Positions 39,620-43,785 of a stretch of 43,890 bases of DNA are shown piece by piece. Position numbers and translations under genes: made by a program. The stretch's first letter is position 1. Every line of letters starts with the position of its first letter. The DNA lies in IMG/VR virus record IMGVR_UViG_3300036791_000819, positions 1 through 43,890 of that record; one strand, 5' to 3'. The stretch is from a virus. The notes under the pieces were generated by a model, which saw only the letters and a program-made list of their open reading frames with translations, did not search any database and was not told where the DNA came from.

Positions 39620-39928
39620 TCAGTGGCCCCTTTCTCCCGCAGTGTATTCGTTGAGTGCGTTAGCAATCCGCACCGCCATGTTTTTCGAGTCTGCCGTAGC
39701 CACCGGAACACCCTTGTAGACGACCACGCAATCTTTCGCCGTGAAGACCGCCATGCGAAGATCAGGACGAGGGAGAAACCCCCCCGCCTTGAGAGCTTCG
39801 ACAATCGAAGCGCCGGAGCTTACCCACTTGGTTCGACTAAAAACGTGGTACGCGCCGTTGTAGTGAACGAGAGCCGGAGCATACACCCGCGACTCTCGCA
39901 AGACCTGTATTCCTTCCCTGTAATCCAT
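39620..39928 (-). CDS. hypothetical protein, 102 aa
   Basis: The ATG at 39928 overlaps the stop of the upstream gene (TAATG); longer in-frame extensions run into that gene and are rejected. The protein is mixed alpha/beta (YAPALVHYNGAYHVFSRTKW; AVFTAKDCVVVYKGVPVATA). Not recognised. It is the only gene of this arm translated by coupling and not from its own conserved leader. Confidence 0.6.
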   Translation of the reverse strand: MDYREGIQVLRESRVYAPALVHYNGAYHVFSRTKWVSSGASIVEALKAGGFLPRPDLRMAVFTAKDCVVVYKGVPVATADSKNMAVRIANALNEYTAGERGH

Positions 39929-40380
39929 TAATCGATCCCCCAAGGTGCAGCGCCATAACCGGGAAGGTAGTTGATGAGCGAGTCTTTCAGCGCACTGCAA
40001 AACTTCCTCGCTTCAGACTCTTCCCACTCGGAATGTTCACACGACTGGTATTCGTAACAGACGATTGCTTTGATCCCCGCGACCGCCGTTAAATGCTTGC
40101 CGATATGCAGAGCATCAGGGAAGACGTAAGGTACGAGCCAGTAGTGCTCATGAGGCCCCGGCGTGTTGTCTGGATTGGTGAGCGTGTCAGGATAGCGCGA
40201 GTGAATACTGGCAAGGTTTTCCTTCGTCAACAACTCGCCTAATGCGTCCGCTGTCACCGAACGCCCACCAGCGAGACGCGGCACGTACCACGTCTGATTC
40301 GCGGGCAACTCTGCGGGACCATAGAGCGCCAATTGAACGAGAGTATCAATGTGTTTTTTGCTGACCATCCATGCAGACAT
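39928..40380 (-). CDS. conserved hypothetical protein (SKKHID type), 150 aa
   Basis: It begins MSAWMVSKKHIDTLV, a start I recall from a widespread uncharacterised bacterial/phage family. Later features are HEHYWLVPYVFPDALHIGKH and CEHSEWEESEARKFC. The ATG at 40380 has GTAGGAG about 9 nt upstream, directly after the diverged leader copy at 40432-40395. Confidence 0.7.
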   Translation of the reverse strand: MSAWMVSKKHIDTLVQLALYGPAELPANQTWYVPRLAGGRSVTADALGELLTKENLASIHSRYPDTLTNPDNTPGPHEHYWLVPYVFPDALHIGKHLTAVAGIKAIVCYEYQSCEHSEWEESEARKFCSALKDSLINYLPGYGAAPWGID

Positions 40381-40391
40381 TTTATTTTCTC

Positions 40392-40544
40392 CTACCCTTG
40401 AGGGTTGTTTGGGGAGCGTTGCTCCGTTGACGTTGTAGTCGTGGCGAGAAAGCAGATCAGACGCGCCACACCATGAGCAATAGGGAAAAAGAACATCACG
40501 AACAGAATGCAAAAAACTCCGGCCAAATTTTCGATGGGAGGCAT
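40392..40544 (-). CDS. small membrane protein, 50 aa
   Basis: A frame from the ATG at 40544, just after a perfect leader copy with its AAAGG ribosome binding site. A single hydrophobic segment (GVFCILFVMFFFPIA, residues about 9-23) and a Thr-rich tail follow. The last residues (STEQRSP) are encoded by the next leader copy, so coding and regulatory DNA overlap. Confidence 0.6.
   Translation of the reverse strand: MPPIENLAGVFCILFVMFFFPIAHGVARLICFLATTTTSTEQRSPNNPQG
40395..40432 (-). promoter_or_regulatory. start-associated leader, copy 1 (diverged)
   Basis: A diverged copy of the leader found at 40551, 40800, 41010, 41849, 42822 and 43576. The stem GGAGC/GCTCC is intact, the loop is AAC, and the distal part is altered (CCCTCAAGGG). 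It precedes the gene starting at 40380. Confidence 0.65.
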
Positions 40545-40550
40545 TAGGAA

Positions 40551-40585
40551 CCTTTCAGGGTTGGGGAGCGTCGCTCCGTTGACGG
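40551..40585 (-). promoter_or_regulatory. start-associated leader, copy 2
   Basis: A 35-nt conserved block. Reading leftward it has the dyad CCGTCAACGG, an overlapping hairpin GGAGC-GAC-GCTCC, then CCCAACCCTGAAAGG, which supplies the ribosome binding site. The start codon of the 50-residue gene follows 6 nt later (40544). Confidence 0.8.
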
Positions 40586-40588
40586 ACT

Positions 40589-40789
40589 TTATTCGCCCAG
40601 CTTGCGCCGAGCTTCAGCGCTAATCAGAGCGAGAATAAAAGAATGCTCCGGCCCAGCCGGAAGCGCCTTGATACACTCCCACTTTCGAGCGTCGATAATC
40701 CACCAAGAGCCATCGCATCGGCCAGAGACCAACTTAGACGCGTCGTGAAGAATGAGCGCCGCTTGTGCTGTTTCGGAAAGTTCGAGCAT
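40589..40789 (-). CDS. small hypothetical protein, 66 aa
   Basis: The ATG at 40789 follows leader copy 3. The product (MLELSETAQAALILHDASKL, then WWIIDARKWECIKALPAG) is helical with an aromatic centre. Not recognised. The longer frame upstream only reads through the leader and is rejected. Confidence 0.65.
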   Translation of the reverse strand: MLELSETAQAALILHDASKLVSGRCDGSWWIIDARKWECIKALPAGPEHSFILALISAEARRKLGE

Positions 40790-40799
40790 TGGGAGGATT

Positions 40800-40834
40800 C
40801 CTTTCAGGGTTGGGGAGCGTCGCTCCGTTGACGG
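40800..40834 (-). promoter_or_regulatory. start-associated leader, copy 3
   Basis: A perfect copy of the 35-nt block, located between the promoter at 40875-40847 and the ATG at 40789. Confidence 0.8.
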
Positions 40835-40846
40835 TTGAATAACTAC

Positions 40847-40875
40847 ACTATAGCACGGAGCCACAGAGCGGACAA
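40847..40875 (-). promoter_or_regulatory. sigma70 promoter, leftward
   Basis: On the minus strand TTGTCC (40875-40870), 17 nt, TATAGT (40852-40847). The 9-mer TGTAGTTAT (40847-40839) begins at the last base of the -10 element and covers the start point. The leader copy follows directly. Confidence 0.65.
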
Positions 40876-41000
40876 TGGAAAAAATAAGTGTAGGCAAGTT
40901 CAAAGCTGCCGTTTGAAGCAAAGCGGATGATGGAGTGCGGACGGTGGAACATCCGAGCAGTGGCTAAATGTTGCGCGTGGGATTCGATAGCTTCGAGCAT
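40848..41000 (-). CDS. small protein with C-terminal CxxC, 50 aa
   Basis: The ATG at 41000 follows leader copy 4. The sequence is His- and Ala-rich at the start (ESHAQHLATARMFHRPHS) and ends FFHCPLCGSVL, a half zinc-ribbon. The stop TAG lies within the -10 element of the next promoter (TATAGT), so the gene end and promoter overlap. Confidence 0.6.
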   Translation of the reverse strand: MLEAIESHAQHLATARMFHRPHSIIRFASNGSFELAYTYFFHCPLCGSVL

Positions 41001-41009
41001 GAGAGAGAA

Positions 41010-41043
41010 CCTTTCAGGGTTGGGGAGCGCCGCTCCGTTGACG
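41010..41043 (-). promoter_or_regulatory. start-associated leader, copy 4
   Basis: A near-perfect copy. The only change inside the hairpin is in its loop (GGC in place of GAC), leaving the stem intact. Confidence 0.8.
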
Positions 41044-41049
41044 AACCTA

Positions 41050-41079
41050 TTGGGGGAGCCGCAGAACGGCATCCCCCAA
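41050..41079 (-). terminator. strong post-gene hairpin
   Basis: TTGGGGGA (41050-41057)/TCCCCCAA (41072-41079) enclose GCCG/CGGC with one bulged base. It lies between the stop of the 249-residue gene and leader copy 4. No U-tract follows on the minus strand, so RNA processing or stabilisation is as likely as termination. Confidence 0.5.
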
Positions 41080-41087
41080 GGATGAGA

Positions 41088-41837
41088 CTAGGCCACGGCA
41101 TCCGCCGCAGCCCGCGCCGCATCCGCATCCGCCGCCGCATCAGCAGCCCTAGCCAAACAACGCCGGTAATTTTCAACGGAGCAGACCGCAGCTTCGCGCA
41201 AGCGAACGGATTCGACAATCGCGCGACAACCTTCGAGCGTATTCCGCAGCGCGTTATTTTTCGCCCAGTCACCGCCGAAGTACTCCGGCCAACCTTCGCC
41301 ATAGCCAGGATGCGTCTTTTGCGAGTGCGCCCACATCCGCACCGTTTCAGATGCGATATAACGCTCTAGCCCGCCCGCATAGTCGCTCAGGATCACGCGC
41401 AGCATGGATGCACACGAGCCATCCTGATAGCGAGTTACTTCCGTATAGCGAGTGTCATACTGCTTTTTGTGGTTCCCGATTTTCTGGAGAGACTTGGAAT
41501 AGTAGCGACGTTTCGACCAGTCACCATCAGACTCACGCCAAACCACAGACGCCGCAAACGCGATGGCTTCCGTATCAGGGTATGCACGAAACATCGAACC
41601 AACCGCCGCAATCAATTCCGGATTCGAGAGCATAGCCTCAGCAATCGAAGCAAGATAGTCCGTTAAAAAATCGAACGTAACCGACCAACTACCTGAATGT
41701 TGAATCAGCCCGTCGCCGTACGTTTCGAACTGCTGAAAGTAGCCGGACGTTTCAGAGTGTGACGACCATGCGCCAGTATCGTAGGAATAACCGTACTTTG
41801 CCGAATGAGCGATAGAGGGAAATTTGAAGAGTGCCAT
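41088..41837 (-). CDS. hypothetical protein with alanine-rich tail, 249 aa
   Basis: The ATG at 41837 follows leader copy 5 with AAAGGTGG about 9 nt upstream. The body is rich in Ser, Tyr and Trp (SYDTGAWSSHSETSGYFQQF; MWAHSQKTHPGYGEGWPEYF). The C-terminus (AADAAADADAARAAADAVA) is encoded by short GCC/GCA direct repeats at about 41092-41150. Not recognised. Confidence 0.65.
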   Translation of the reverse strand: MALFKFPSIAHSAKYGYSYDTGAWSSHSETSGYFQQFETYGDGLIQHSGSWSVTFDFLTDYLASIAEAMLSNPELIAAVGSMFRAYPDTEAIAFAASVVWRESDGDWSKRRYYSKSLQKIGNHKKQYDTRYTEVTRYQDGSCASMLRVILSDYAGGLERYIASETVRMWAHSQKTHPGYGEGWPEYFGGDWAKNNALRNTLEGCRAIVESVRLREAAVCSVENYRRCLARAADAAADADAARAAADAVA

Positions 41838-41848
41838 GTTTGTATCCA

Positions 41849-41883
41849 CCTTTCAGGGTTGGGGAGCGTCGCTCCGTTGACGG
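41849..41883 (-). promoter_or_regulatory. start-associated leader, copy 5
   Basis: A perfect copy of the block upstream of the 249-residue gene; a 9-bp perfect hairpin (41912-41890) lies immediately before it. Confidence 0.8.
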
Positions 41884-41889
41884 ACTAAA

Positions 41890-41912
41890 GCGAGGAGCTT
41901 ATCGCTCCTCGC
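41890..41912 (-). terminator. 9-bp perfect hairpin after the DUF932-like gene
   Basis: GCGAGGAGC/GCTCCTCGC around a 5-nt loop, followed by TTTAG on the minus strand. A short T run makes partial termination plausible; read-through would feed the next leader. Confidence 0.6.
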
Positions 41913-41930
41913 CTGTAGGACGCGTCGCAA

Positions 41931-42812
41931 CTATGCCGCGACAGTCACGCCTTTCAATTCTGCCATACGCTCCGCCAGCTGCCACAGAGCGCGATTCAAG
42001 CGGACATCCTGATCGATACCGCGAACCTCACGTGTCGTAACCATACGCGCGTTTCGCTCCCCAGGACGACGCGCCGACAACCCGCCTTTGATGGCATTTT
42101 CTTGGACGACGTTTAGAGTGCGGTATAGGTCAGAAGCGGGACGCGACCATGCGCCGTCAGCATCTCTGTCCGCCATGCGACGCGGAGTTAACAACTGCGA
42201 TGCGGTAATGGGAGTGTCAATTTTGCCGTCCGCATCCGCGAAACGGAGCGAGTGCGCAGCTTCCGCGAACGCGTTTTGTTCGCCCGCTGTCAACCGCAGA
42301 TTTGACCAAGTATCGACGGTGGAGAGCGCCTTGCGCGCGTCGTCAATAATCTGGAAACTACCTTCGATGACTTGGTTAATCACATTGCCTTTGTGGGGAA
42401 TGTTCAACTCCCCCATGTTGCGCTCGCAGATGACTAGCCCGTTTGTGCAAATTACACGGAAAATTCCGCTCAGAAGCTTGTAAGCGCTCGTTCCGTCGTG
42501 CGAGTTAATCAACACAACTTCCGGTATGTTTCCGCCCACTTGGATTGCGGACGCGTCCGCATGGCGAAAACGAATCATATGCTTGGTAAATTCGGTTTTG
42601 CCTTCGATGCGCGAACGGCTTTGAACGGCTTTGAACGGAGCGAACCCTTGTGCCATCAAACCTTCGATAACTTCACTTGTGGGGATATAAGCGTAGCGGG
42701 CTGAGCGCGAAGCATGAGGCTGGGTTGCGAACGCGGACGGAACCAGCGAACGGAGCGAGTCGATTGTTTGGGCGTTGCTGAAGTTGGAATTGAAACGAGA
42801 ATTAAAGCGCAT
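41931..42812 (-). CDS. DUF932/phage-plasmid-like protein, 293 aa
   Basis: The features YIPTSEVIEGLMAQGFAPFK, HMIRFRH, PEVVLINSHDGTSAYKLLSG and FRVICTNGLVICE fit the DUF932 family, common on phages and plasmids and of unknown mechanism. The length is near the family's usual 250-350 aa. The ATG at 42812 follows leader copy 6. Earlier in-frame codons read only through the leader and are rejected. A promoter with an internal palindrome lies upstream. Confidence 0.85.
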   Translation of the reverse strand: MRFNSRFNSNFSNAQTIDSLRSLVPSAFATQPHASRSARYAYIPTSEVIEGLMAQGFAPFKAVQSRSRIEGKTEFTKHMIRFRHADASAIQVGGNIPEVVLINSHDGTSAYKLLSGIFRVICTNGLVICERNMGELNIPHKGNVINQVIEGSFQIIDDARKALSTVDTWSNLRLTAGEQNAFAEAAHSLRFADADGKIDTPITASQLLTPRRMADRDADGAWSRPASDLYRTLNVVQENAIKGGLSARRPGERNARMVTTREVRGIDQDVRLNRALWQLAERMAELKGVTVAA

Positions 42813-42821
42813 GGTGGAAAT

Positions 42822-42856
42822 CCTTTCAGGGTTGGGGAGCGTCGCTCCGTTGACGG
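42822..42856 (-). promoter_or_regulatory. start-associated leader, copy 6
   Basis: A perfect copy, located between the promoter at 42907-42878 and the DUF932-like gene. Confidence 0.8.
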
Positions 42857-42877
42857 TTGAATAACTATACTTTGACA

Positions 42878-42907
42878 ATAGTACAGAATGCACGCGTGCA
42901 AATGCAA
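42878..42907 (-). promoter_or_regulatory. leftward promoter with palindromic operator in the spacer
   Basis: On the minus strand TTGCAT (42907-42902), 18 nt, TACTAT (42883-42878). The spacer contains a perfect 12-bp palindrome TGCACGCGTGCA (42889-42900), well placed for a repressor. A one-base variant of the 9-mer (TATAGTTAT, 42869-42861) follows, then leader copy 6. Confidence 0.5.
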
Positions 42908-42915
42908 GGGAAAAA

Positions 42916-43521
42916 TTACATTAGTTCAAACTGCAAAGACATAAGAGACTCACGGACGTTGTTGTTGGAGTCTTTAACAATTCTGCGGAAGTTGGGAGCA
43001 TCGTTCGTTCCGTCACTCTCAGCATTCCAGACTGTTTCGAGCATTGCGGCAATTTGCTCTGCGACTCCCTGCGATGAAAACTTAACCTCAAAACAGCGAG
43101 ACAAAAAACGGGGCTCTAAAGCTGCATCATCATTCATTGTAAAAATTATGATGGTTTCGGCGGGCCTGTCCGTAGAATCCAGAATGGAGAGAAAGGCATC
43201 GCGCGCTGGTTTGCTCATGCTGTCCGCTTCGTCAATTAAGACCAAATGCCAGCCCTTGCCAAACATGGGAGCATAGCGGCAGCGTTCGCGGACGGCTTCA
43301 ACCGCTGCGACGGTGCATTTTTGTGAGGGGATGTGATGCAGTTCTGCCCCTAGTTCTTCCGCAATGGCAAGGGCGAACGTCGTCTTTCCCATTCCTGACG
43401 GGCCAACAAAGCGCCATGCGCTTGCGAACGGCTTACTAATCAGCTTCGCCAGCTTCGCCTTGGGCTTGTCTAACCCTAGGAATCCAGCGATTACATGCGG
43501 ACGGTATTTTTCGGTAAGCAA
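42916..43521 (-). CDS. clamp-loader-like AAA+ ATPase, about 201 aa
   Basis: Residues are numbered from TTG 43521. The opening LLTEKYRPH matches the EKYRP start of RFC and gp44-type clamp loaders. Walker A GPSGMGKTT (about 40-48), Walker B VLIDEAD (about 93-99), sensor-1-like IIIFTMNDDAA and the SRC motif (LSRCFEV) are all present. It lacks the collar domain and is shorter than T4 gp44 (about 320 aa). The start is problematic: leader copy 7 points to ATG 43564, which is out of frame by one base. The in-frame TTG at 43521 has no ribosome binding site. A +1 shift near the T4 run 43551-43554 would restore an N-terminus of about 215 aa. Confidence 0.8.
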   Translation of the reverse strand: MLTEKYRPHVIAGFLGLDKPKAKLAKLISKPFASAWRFVGPSGMGKTTFALAIAEELGAELHHIPSQKCTVAAVEAVRERCRYAPMFGKGWHLVLIDEADSMSKPARDAFLSILDSTDRPAETIIIFTMNDDAALEPRFLSRCFEVKFSSQGVAEQIAAMLETVWNAESDGTNDAPNFRRIVKDSNNNVRESLMSLQFELM

Positions 43522-43575
43522 TGTTTCGGTCGGAAGCGGAGATATCTCGGAAAAGTGTGCTCATTGGGGTTTTAT

Positions 43576-43610
43576 CCTTTCAGGGTTGGGGAGCGTCGCT
43601 CCGTTGACGG
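43576..43610 (-). promoter_or_regulatory. start-associated leader, copy 7
   Basis: A perfect copy upstream of the clamp-loader-like gene. Its AAAGG lies 11 nt before ATG 43564, which opens a frame one base away from the ATPase frame. Confidence 0.8.
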
Positions 43611-43672: not shown

Positions 43673-43705
43673 GCCAACCGACCGCCAACCGACCGCCAAC
43701 CCACG
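43673..43705. repeat. iteron cluster A, three 11-bp repeats
   Basis: Three contiguous 11-bp units: GCCAACCGACC twice and GCCAACCCACG. The same unit with small changes is repeated in cluster B, exactly 80 bp to the right (start to start). Head-to-tail short repeats next to AT-rich DNA are typical of initiator-binding iterons. Confidence 0.65.
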
Positions 43706-43752
43706 GCAGAGCGAAGGTTAGAACCTGCAAAAATAAAGTTTGCAAAGTGAGT

Positions 43753-43785
43753 GCCAACCCACCGCCAACCCACCGCCAAGCCAGC
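43753..43785. repeat. iteron cluster B, three 11-bp repeats
   Basis: Three contiguous units: GCCAACCCACC twice and GCCAAGCCAGC, in the same direction as cluster A. The interval between clusters contains an AT-rich stretch (43729-43745). Confidence 0.65.

Follow-up and report, generated by a model that had tools for sequence, protein, structure and literature searches.

Small stable tetraloop hairpins lie between phage genes in the mRNA of phage T4, and the element considered here is like them in kind. It is a repeated leader in front of the right-arm genes of a virus, IMG/VR record IMGVR_UViG_3300036791_000819, which was analysed as the complete record of 43,890 nucleotides (nt), hereafter the window. 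The 5′ stem-loops of the T7 gene 10 and ompA type resemble it in having a GC stem-loop in the 5′ untranslated region (UTR), an unpaired linker and a strong Shine-Dalgarno (SD) sequence. Such stem-loops are thought to act by shape, not sequence, and they raise mRNA stability and expression (PMC2254391, PMC6146998, PMC3997798). They hinder the access of RppH and RNase E (PMC3997798), and the T7 gene 10 stem-loop placed before the SD sequence or ribosome-binding site raises expression in E. coli (PMC2254391) and, in Cupriavidus, raises expression 1.5-3-fold together with mRNA abundance (PMC6146998). Hairpins upstream of the SD sequence also tune initiation, and the hairpins of ribosome standby sites are similar to the leader in that one hairpin upstream, flanked by single-stranded RNA close to the SD sequence, affects the initiation rate (PMC3936740). 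In cluster K mycobacteriophages, many non-structural genes have a copy of a repeated element beside their start codon, the start-associated sequences (SAS) and extended start-associated sequences (ESAS); the latter are inverted repeats linked to promoters, and their consensus varies between subclusters (PMC3203893, PMC11373665). The role of SAS has been left open in the literature (PMC3203893, PMC11373665, PMC12699233), and phage start-associated repeats have gone without explanation since 2011.

We consider the leader of the window to be a 5′ stem-loop that forms an insulated ribosome-site cassette, like the leader of T7 gene 10 and repeated gene by gene; to this reading, including the function that we infer, we assign a probability of roughly 0.6. 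A stem-loop upstream of the SD sequence that is conserved as structure was found in the leaders, as expected of the T7 gene 10/ompA type. However, leaders of that type have been described for single mRNAs, whereas 3-11 leaders occur per genome here, also between cistrons; the present leaders, known from sequence alone, further differ in their fixed distance from the start codon, their concerted sequence within a genome and their turnover between phages. Standby-site hairpins are mostly larger and are found in engineered or long natural 5′ UTRs, whereas the leader stems measure 3-13 bp. The block is not a cluster K SAS. The comparison with cluster K made in the earlier note holds as a functional analogy, in that a repeated element stands beside 7/8 right-arm starts, but it does not extend to the sequence or the layout. 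The SAS is a fixed 13-mer, GGGATAGGAGCCC, which contains the SD sequence within the motif and lies 3-9 bp from the start, whereas here the hairpin ends 20-29 nt from the start, the SD sequence follows it and structure alone is conserved; a search for GGGATAGGAGCCC with up to 2 deviations gave 0 matches in the window. ESAS are 17-bp imperfect inverted repeats that contain SigA-type promoter hexamers; the leaders do not have this arrangement, and their arms are 3-13 bp long with the promoter, where present, upstream of the hairpin.

The seven copies of the 34-35-nt block all fall within 40395-43610 on the minus strand, and an exact pattern search found the block nowhere else in the record. Neither the structural genes, which are read rightward, nor the leftward genes at the left end carry it. 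The search bore out the earlier claim of seven copies, the seventh diverged, upstream of all but one of the eight leftward starts in the right arm; the exception, ATG 39928, overlaps the stop codon of the gene upstream. The first leader (43576-43610, hairpin 43590-43602) stands before ATG 43564 at the start of the clamp-loader gene, and the second (42822-42856, hairpin 42836-42848) before ATG 42812 of the DUF932 gene. The third to sixth are at 41849-41883 (hairpin 41863-41875, ATG 41837), 41010-41043 (hairpin 41024-41036, ATG 41000, with a competing fold predicted), 40800-40834 (hairpin 40814-40826, ATG 40789) and 40551-40585 (hairpin 40565-40577, ATG 40544). The diverged seventh is at 40395-40432 (hairpin 40413-40425, ATG 40380). 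The pattern GGAGC-N3-GCTCC with at most one mismatch has 9 matches in the window against 2.1 expected, a count reached in 0/100 shuffles. As the earlier note had it, variation in the hairpin is confined to the loop, which in the mRNA sense is GAC in five copies, GGC at 41036 and AAC at 40425. Two further parts of its description apply to most copies only: the dyad CCGTCAACGG is intact in 5/7 and replaced by TCGTCAACGG and ACGTCAACGG in the other two, and the SD sequence CTGAAAGG is present in 6/7, the diverged copy using a separate one, TAGGAG, in its place. Folding of the seven leaders yielded the 5-bp hairpin in six, and no Rfam family exceeded its gathering threshold in the window (0 matches). 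The window by itself cannot identify the block, and one 5-bp hairpin is weak evidence. Because the folds of single leaders are mostly not unusual, the structural claim rests on comparison with relatives.

Nine relatives were found via the DUF932 protein, in records of 40-44 kb with a terminase common to all (56-90% identical), and two more (L143 and L144) were found afterwards with a clamp-loader search. Genes were called by a simple script, and repeats were sought in the relatives by k-mer counting alone, with no structure required; most relatives proved to carry their own block before their starts. All eleven have their own hairpin at the matching place, which gives 71 leaders in 12 phages with the window included, and the DUF932 gene has a leader hairpin in 12/12. 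The exact block sequence of the window occurs in none of the eleven relatives or the other viral contigs searched, and no similar DNA was found among named phages, the nearest named terminase being that of a Tunturiibacter phage at 25%. Prokaryote matches to the DUF932 protein are ~40-56% identical and show merely that the gene is widespread; they yielded no host. The search in related phages thus returned orthologous genes without the block sequence but with a compensated hairpin, and the term phage-specific used in the earlier note is apt for the sequence only; the structure is common to the whole group. The core hairpin is GGAGC(GAC)GCUCC in the window, GGGC(UCCG)GCCC in L008, GGCC(CAUAGC)GGCC in L009, GGGU(GCAA)ACCC in L010 and L023, GGGC(GAAA or GAGA)GCCC in L011, GGG(CUAGU)CCC in L012, GGGC(CUCG, UUUG or UUAG)GCCC in L013 and GGGCC(NNNC)GGCCC in four copies of L144. 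L036 has three different stems (GGGCC/GGUCC, GGGGC/GCUCC and GGGAGC/GCUCCC), and in L014 and L143 the stem differs in most copies, some of those of L143 having UUCG loops. Between stem and SD sequence lies a short C/A-rich linker (CCAAC, TCAAC, CCAAAC, ACAAC, ACACTC or CATAAC).

A MAFFT alignment with one leader per phage put the stems out of register, and covariation was therefore counted on arms anchored by structure. Counted from the outermost, stem pairs 3 and 4 each occur as A-U, U-A, G-C, C-G and G-U, with 27/28 cells paired, a degree of pairing reached by 0/20,000 re-dealings of the 3′ arms. In L036, a compensatory stem change took place inside one genome. The refuting condition set in the earlier note, stem changes that lack compensation, was not borne out across relatives: stems change by compensation. 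The loops differ in class between phages and range over 3-7 nt in the group; GCAA, GAAA/GAGA, UCCG, CUCG and UUCG are among them, of the GNRA and UNCG/YNMG types. In the distinct hairpins of L036, L014, L143 and L144, 13 of the non-Watson-Crick pairs are G-U and 1 is A-C in the mRNA sense, as expected if the active form is RNA on this strand. A test for hairpins within the repeats is weak for each phage alone (p 0.005-0.18) and gives 8e-5 when combined. These results point to a leader block that acts as RNA structure and not as a sequence signal.

The second line of evidence is position. The distance from the 3′ end of the hairpin to the start codon has a median of 25 nt (interquartile range 22.5-27). 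Hairpins with their 3′ end 18-32 nt ahead of the start codon were found at 55/73 intergenic starts of the arm in 12 phages and at 34/234 late starts in ten phages (p=6e-22). Most of the excess lies at 20-29 nt, where it peaks sharply, and start codons are predicted to be more open in the arm than in late genes (0.58 vs 0.43). In L143 and L144, which were found after the prediction was made, a hairpin fits at 12/14 starts. Crude hairpin counts reach 19-50% in the well-known control phages T7, lambda, N4 and TM4. Since such counts in unrelated phages are high in GC-rich genomes, the late regions of the group itself make the proper control. More distant relatives by DUF932 or clamp loader give 8-50% by the crude count, with no clear excess. 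From gene content and orientation, we infer that the arm is expressed early. Among distant DUF932 phages, L018 and L019 have small triloop hairpins directly before the SD sequence at some starts (for example, GCGGC-ACA-GCCGC-AAGGAG), which follow a repeated TTTGATAGGCG motif; this is the same idea in a different layout.

The third line concerns what lies upstream of the hairpin, with promoter-linked and promoterless copies separated by pattern only. In L014, 8/11 copies follow TTGACA-17/18-TACAAT/TACTAT, which is near the sigma-70 consensus, and the hairpin begins 2-3 nt after the predicted transcript start. Promoter-linked copies of the other phages mostly stand behind a promoter-like pair of TTG and TAnnnT type together with a TAGTTAT box. 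Among promoterless copies, 19/41 have a second strong hairpin upstream (5.7 expected after shuffling), mostly 10-16 nt away, compared with 5/30 promoter-linked copies (3.1 expected). Within L014, one promoterless copy (4186) has a second hairpin and the promoter copies have none. The double hairpins of promoterless copies suggest that the RNA may be processed between the two. In most relatives, the majority of promoter-linked copies also have a box GT(A/G)TAGTTATT downstream of the promoter and ahead of the leader hairpin; in the window it lies at approximately 42861-42870 and 40839-40848. TAGTTAY in the sense of the arms has a density of 0.42 per kb, compared with 0.12 in late regions.

According to the cassette model that we favor, each unit of the mRNA would begin with a short GC hairpin, its 3′ foot 20-29 nt ahead of the start codon, and continue through an unpaired C/A-rich linker and the SD sequence to the start codon itself. 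The hairpin would work through its shape. It would provide a structured upstream edge of the cistron, would shield the message from decay beginning at the 5′ end, and would prevent RNA farther upstream from base-pairing with the ribosome-binding site. Its place would be directly after a promoter; where a promoter is lacking, about half of the copies follow a second strong hairpin instead, and cleavage in the linker between the two hairpins could then leave the downstream cistron with its own capped 5′ end. The constant shape, unpaired linker and start-codon distance are consistent with a leader serving as a cap upstream of the ribosome-binding site. The control of translation or RNA processing proposed in the earlier note is thereby supported in outline, in that the hairpin and its distance from the start are kept under compensation and promoterless copies tend to follow a second hairpin. 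The natural compensatory change across this phage group shows that a start-associated repeat can be a structure at the RNA level instead of a signal read as sequence. It also delimits a defined unit of hairpin, linker and SD sequence. If the model is true, this unit would be a natural modular expression cassette like those that are otherwise assembled manually in expression vectors.

Several observations weigh against the cassette model. The folding energies and z-scores of single leaders are mostly ordinary, such that single hairpins are not thermodynamically outstanding, and the stem of L012 has only 3 bp. Some of the searches behind the hairpin lists and G-U counts permitted G-U pairs, which biases the results in that direction, and for L014, L036 and L143 the lists were compiled once pairing had been looked for. 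Outside L014, the hairpin mostly lies ~5-25 nt past the predicted transcript start, which is farther than in classic 5′-end protectors, and about half of the promoterless copies have no second hairpin. Finally, a hairpin that is near-uniform within most genomes would also be expected from a phage-specific binding factor.

This last point bears on the foremost alternative, in which a protein encoded by the phage (a translational repressor, an activator or a processing factor) has the hairpin as its RNA site and co-evolves with it in each phage. The copies are indeed near-uniform inside most genomes and different between genomes: the leader of the DUF932 gene has a mean identity of 0.87 to its neighbours in the same genome and 0.63 between orthologous leaders, and even the window and L008, with terminases 90% identical, have different hairpins. 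However, local duplication of leaders is visible as an 85-nt repeat in L013 and a 44-nt repeat in L010, and uniformity therefore needs no binding factor, although it is compatible with one. In L014, L036 and L143, moreover, stem and loop vary from copy to copy, and no loop is common to the group. The loop of the leader hairpin is not conserved, and the leader hairpin is thus unlike two other, binding-site-like hairpins of these arms, which keep the loop and change the stem. We regard a dedicated binding protein as unlikely. Uniformity within genomes and turnover between them nevertheless raise the question of what drives replacement. A broader version of the cassette model, which we put forward tentatively and would not expect to hold in its entirety, is a genome-wide post-transcriptional layout in which each arm gene would be an independent capped cistron, fronted either by a promoter and a hairpin or by two hairpins with a cut between them, and in both cases then by an open ribosome site. 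A genome would exchange its hairpin alphabet as a whole, perhaps to evade an RNA-targeting factor of the host or of a rival, or in step with a factor encoded by the phage.

A role in DNA is considerably less probable. If the dyads were operators for a repressor or other transcription factor that overlap the ribosome-binding site, as the earlier note had suggested in its operator that also encodes this site, their palindromic form and the closeness of several copies to promoters would be accounted for, and the cluster K ESAS provide a precedent of promoter-linked inverted repeats (PMC11373665). The distance, however, is fixed to the start codon and not to the promoter, and promoterless copies stand behind a second hairpin. 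The outer dyad is broken in 2/7 window copies, one phage can have different palindromes (the stems vary within L014, L036 and L143), the wobbles are G-U rather than A-C, and the tetraloops are of RNA type. We therefore disfavor the operator. Another proposal, that short repeats are homogenised by recombination, serve as linkers when modules are exchanged and play no part in expression, would agree with uniformity within genomes and with the local duplications; it is very improbable, given that the sequences are mostly not common to relatives, which makes them unusable as common linkers, and that compensatory change and fixed spacing need selection on structure.

Phage N4 has DNA-hairpin promoters that are read by a phage RNA polymerase, with a 5-7-bp stem, a 3-nt loop and a transcript start just downstream. 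The 5-bp stem and 3-nt loop of the window resemble this geometry, and the start-codon distance would be constant. Across the group, however, loops of 3-7 nt and stems of 3-13 bp depart from a fixed 3-nt-loop geometry, the wobbles are G-U in the mRNA sense, and the near-consensus sigma-70 promoter directly upstream in L014 places the hairpin inside the transcript. Furthermore, no RNA polymerase was recognised among the subset of window proteins that was scanned, in which a 910-amino-acid (aa) protein had weak Ig-like matches only. We give promoters of the N4 type hardly any credence. Attenuators or terminators before each gene, to which hairpins that are often doubled might seem suited, can be dismissed almost entirely: 0/7 leader hairpins on the mRNA strand were called terminator-like (a G+C-rich stem followed by a U run), and such sites are at chance level in the arm (6 vs 5.7 expected).

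The two binding-site-like hairpins mentioned above are as follows. Just downstream of the DUF932 gene lies a hairpin whose 8-nt loop is near-constant (TCCAAAGC/T) and whose stem varies by compensated changes, at L009 2140, L010 2202, L011 1882, L012 2274, L013 2376, L016 5872 and L023 1878; it was not found in the window, and L144 has a similar tcccaagt loop before the leader at 1974. This hairpin looks like a candidate RNA-binding site. The other is an element of the form ACCGC-stem-loop-stem-SD with a loop of GCG(T)TAT type, which precedes one or two genes at the arm end (L009 4146, L010 3040 and 3340, L011 3342, L012 2957, L013 near 3862 and L036 2137). Its stem is compensated and its loop (GCGTTAT) is largely kept, and it is possibly an autoregulatory site.

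The remaining features of the right arm are all on the minus strand. A second, stronger hairpin, AGGCGAGGAGC-GATAA-GCTCCTCGCTT (41888-41914, fold z -4.24), lies 12 nt upstream of the hairpin of leader 3. Before leader 4, an upstream hairpin TTGGGGGA..CGGC/TCCCCCAA (41050-41079) with an interrupted stem was recognised by eye and falls under the scoring threshold. The hairpin GCUCGGC-GCAA-GCUGGGC before leader 6 (40595-40612) is at the end of the preceding gene, where the scan scores an overlapping hairpin, and a possible hairpin GTGGCG...CGCCAC with a long loop before leader 7 (40441-40469) is partly in the predicted fold and is unscored. Promoter-like sequences are TTGCAT-18-TACTAT before leader 2 (42878-42907), with a similar layout in L023 (TTGCAT-17-TACTAT), and, by sequence pattern, TTGTCC-17-TATAGT before leader 5 (40847-40875).

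The arm encodes a clamp loader, a DUF932 protein and six open reading frames (ORFs) without family matches. ATG 43564 of leader 1 opens a 42-aa ORF, and the conserved frame of the clamp-loader AAA+ gene (42916-43521), which begins near 43521 (LLTEKYRP...), is one frame off from it; the offset may reflect an assembly error, frameshifting or another start. The DUF932 gene (41931-42812), the query used for finding relatives, is followed by a 249-aa gene without assigned function (41088-41837) and by ORFs of 50 aa (40848-41000), 66 aa (40589-40789), 50 aa (40392-40544) and 150 aa (39928-40380), the last gene with a leader. The start of the 102-aa ORF without a leader (39620-39928) and the stop of the gene upstream overlap (TAATG). 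Window positions 43675-43770, at the arm's outer end, contain repeats such as GGTTGGCGGT, and the outer arm ends of L009, L010, L011 and L013 contain other short repeats at the matching place.

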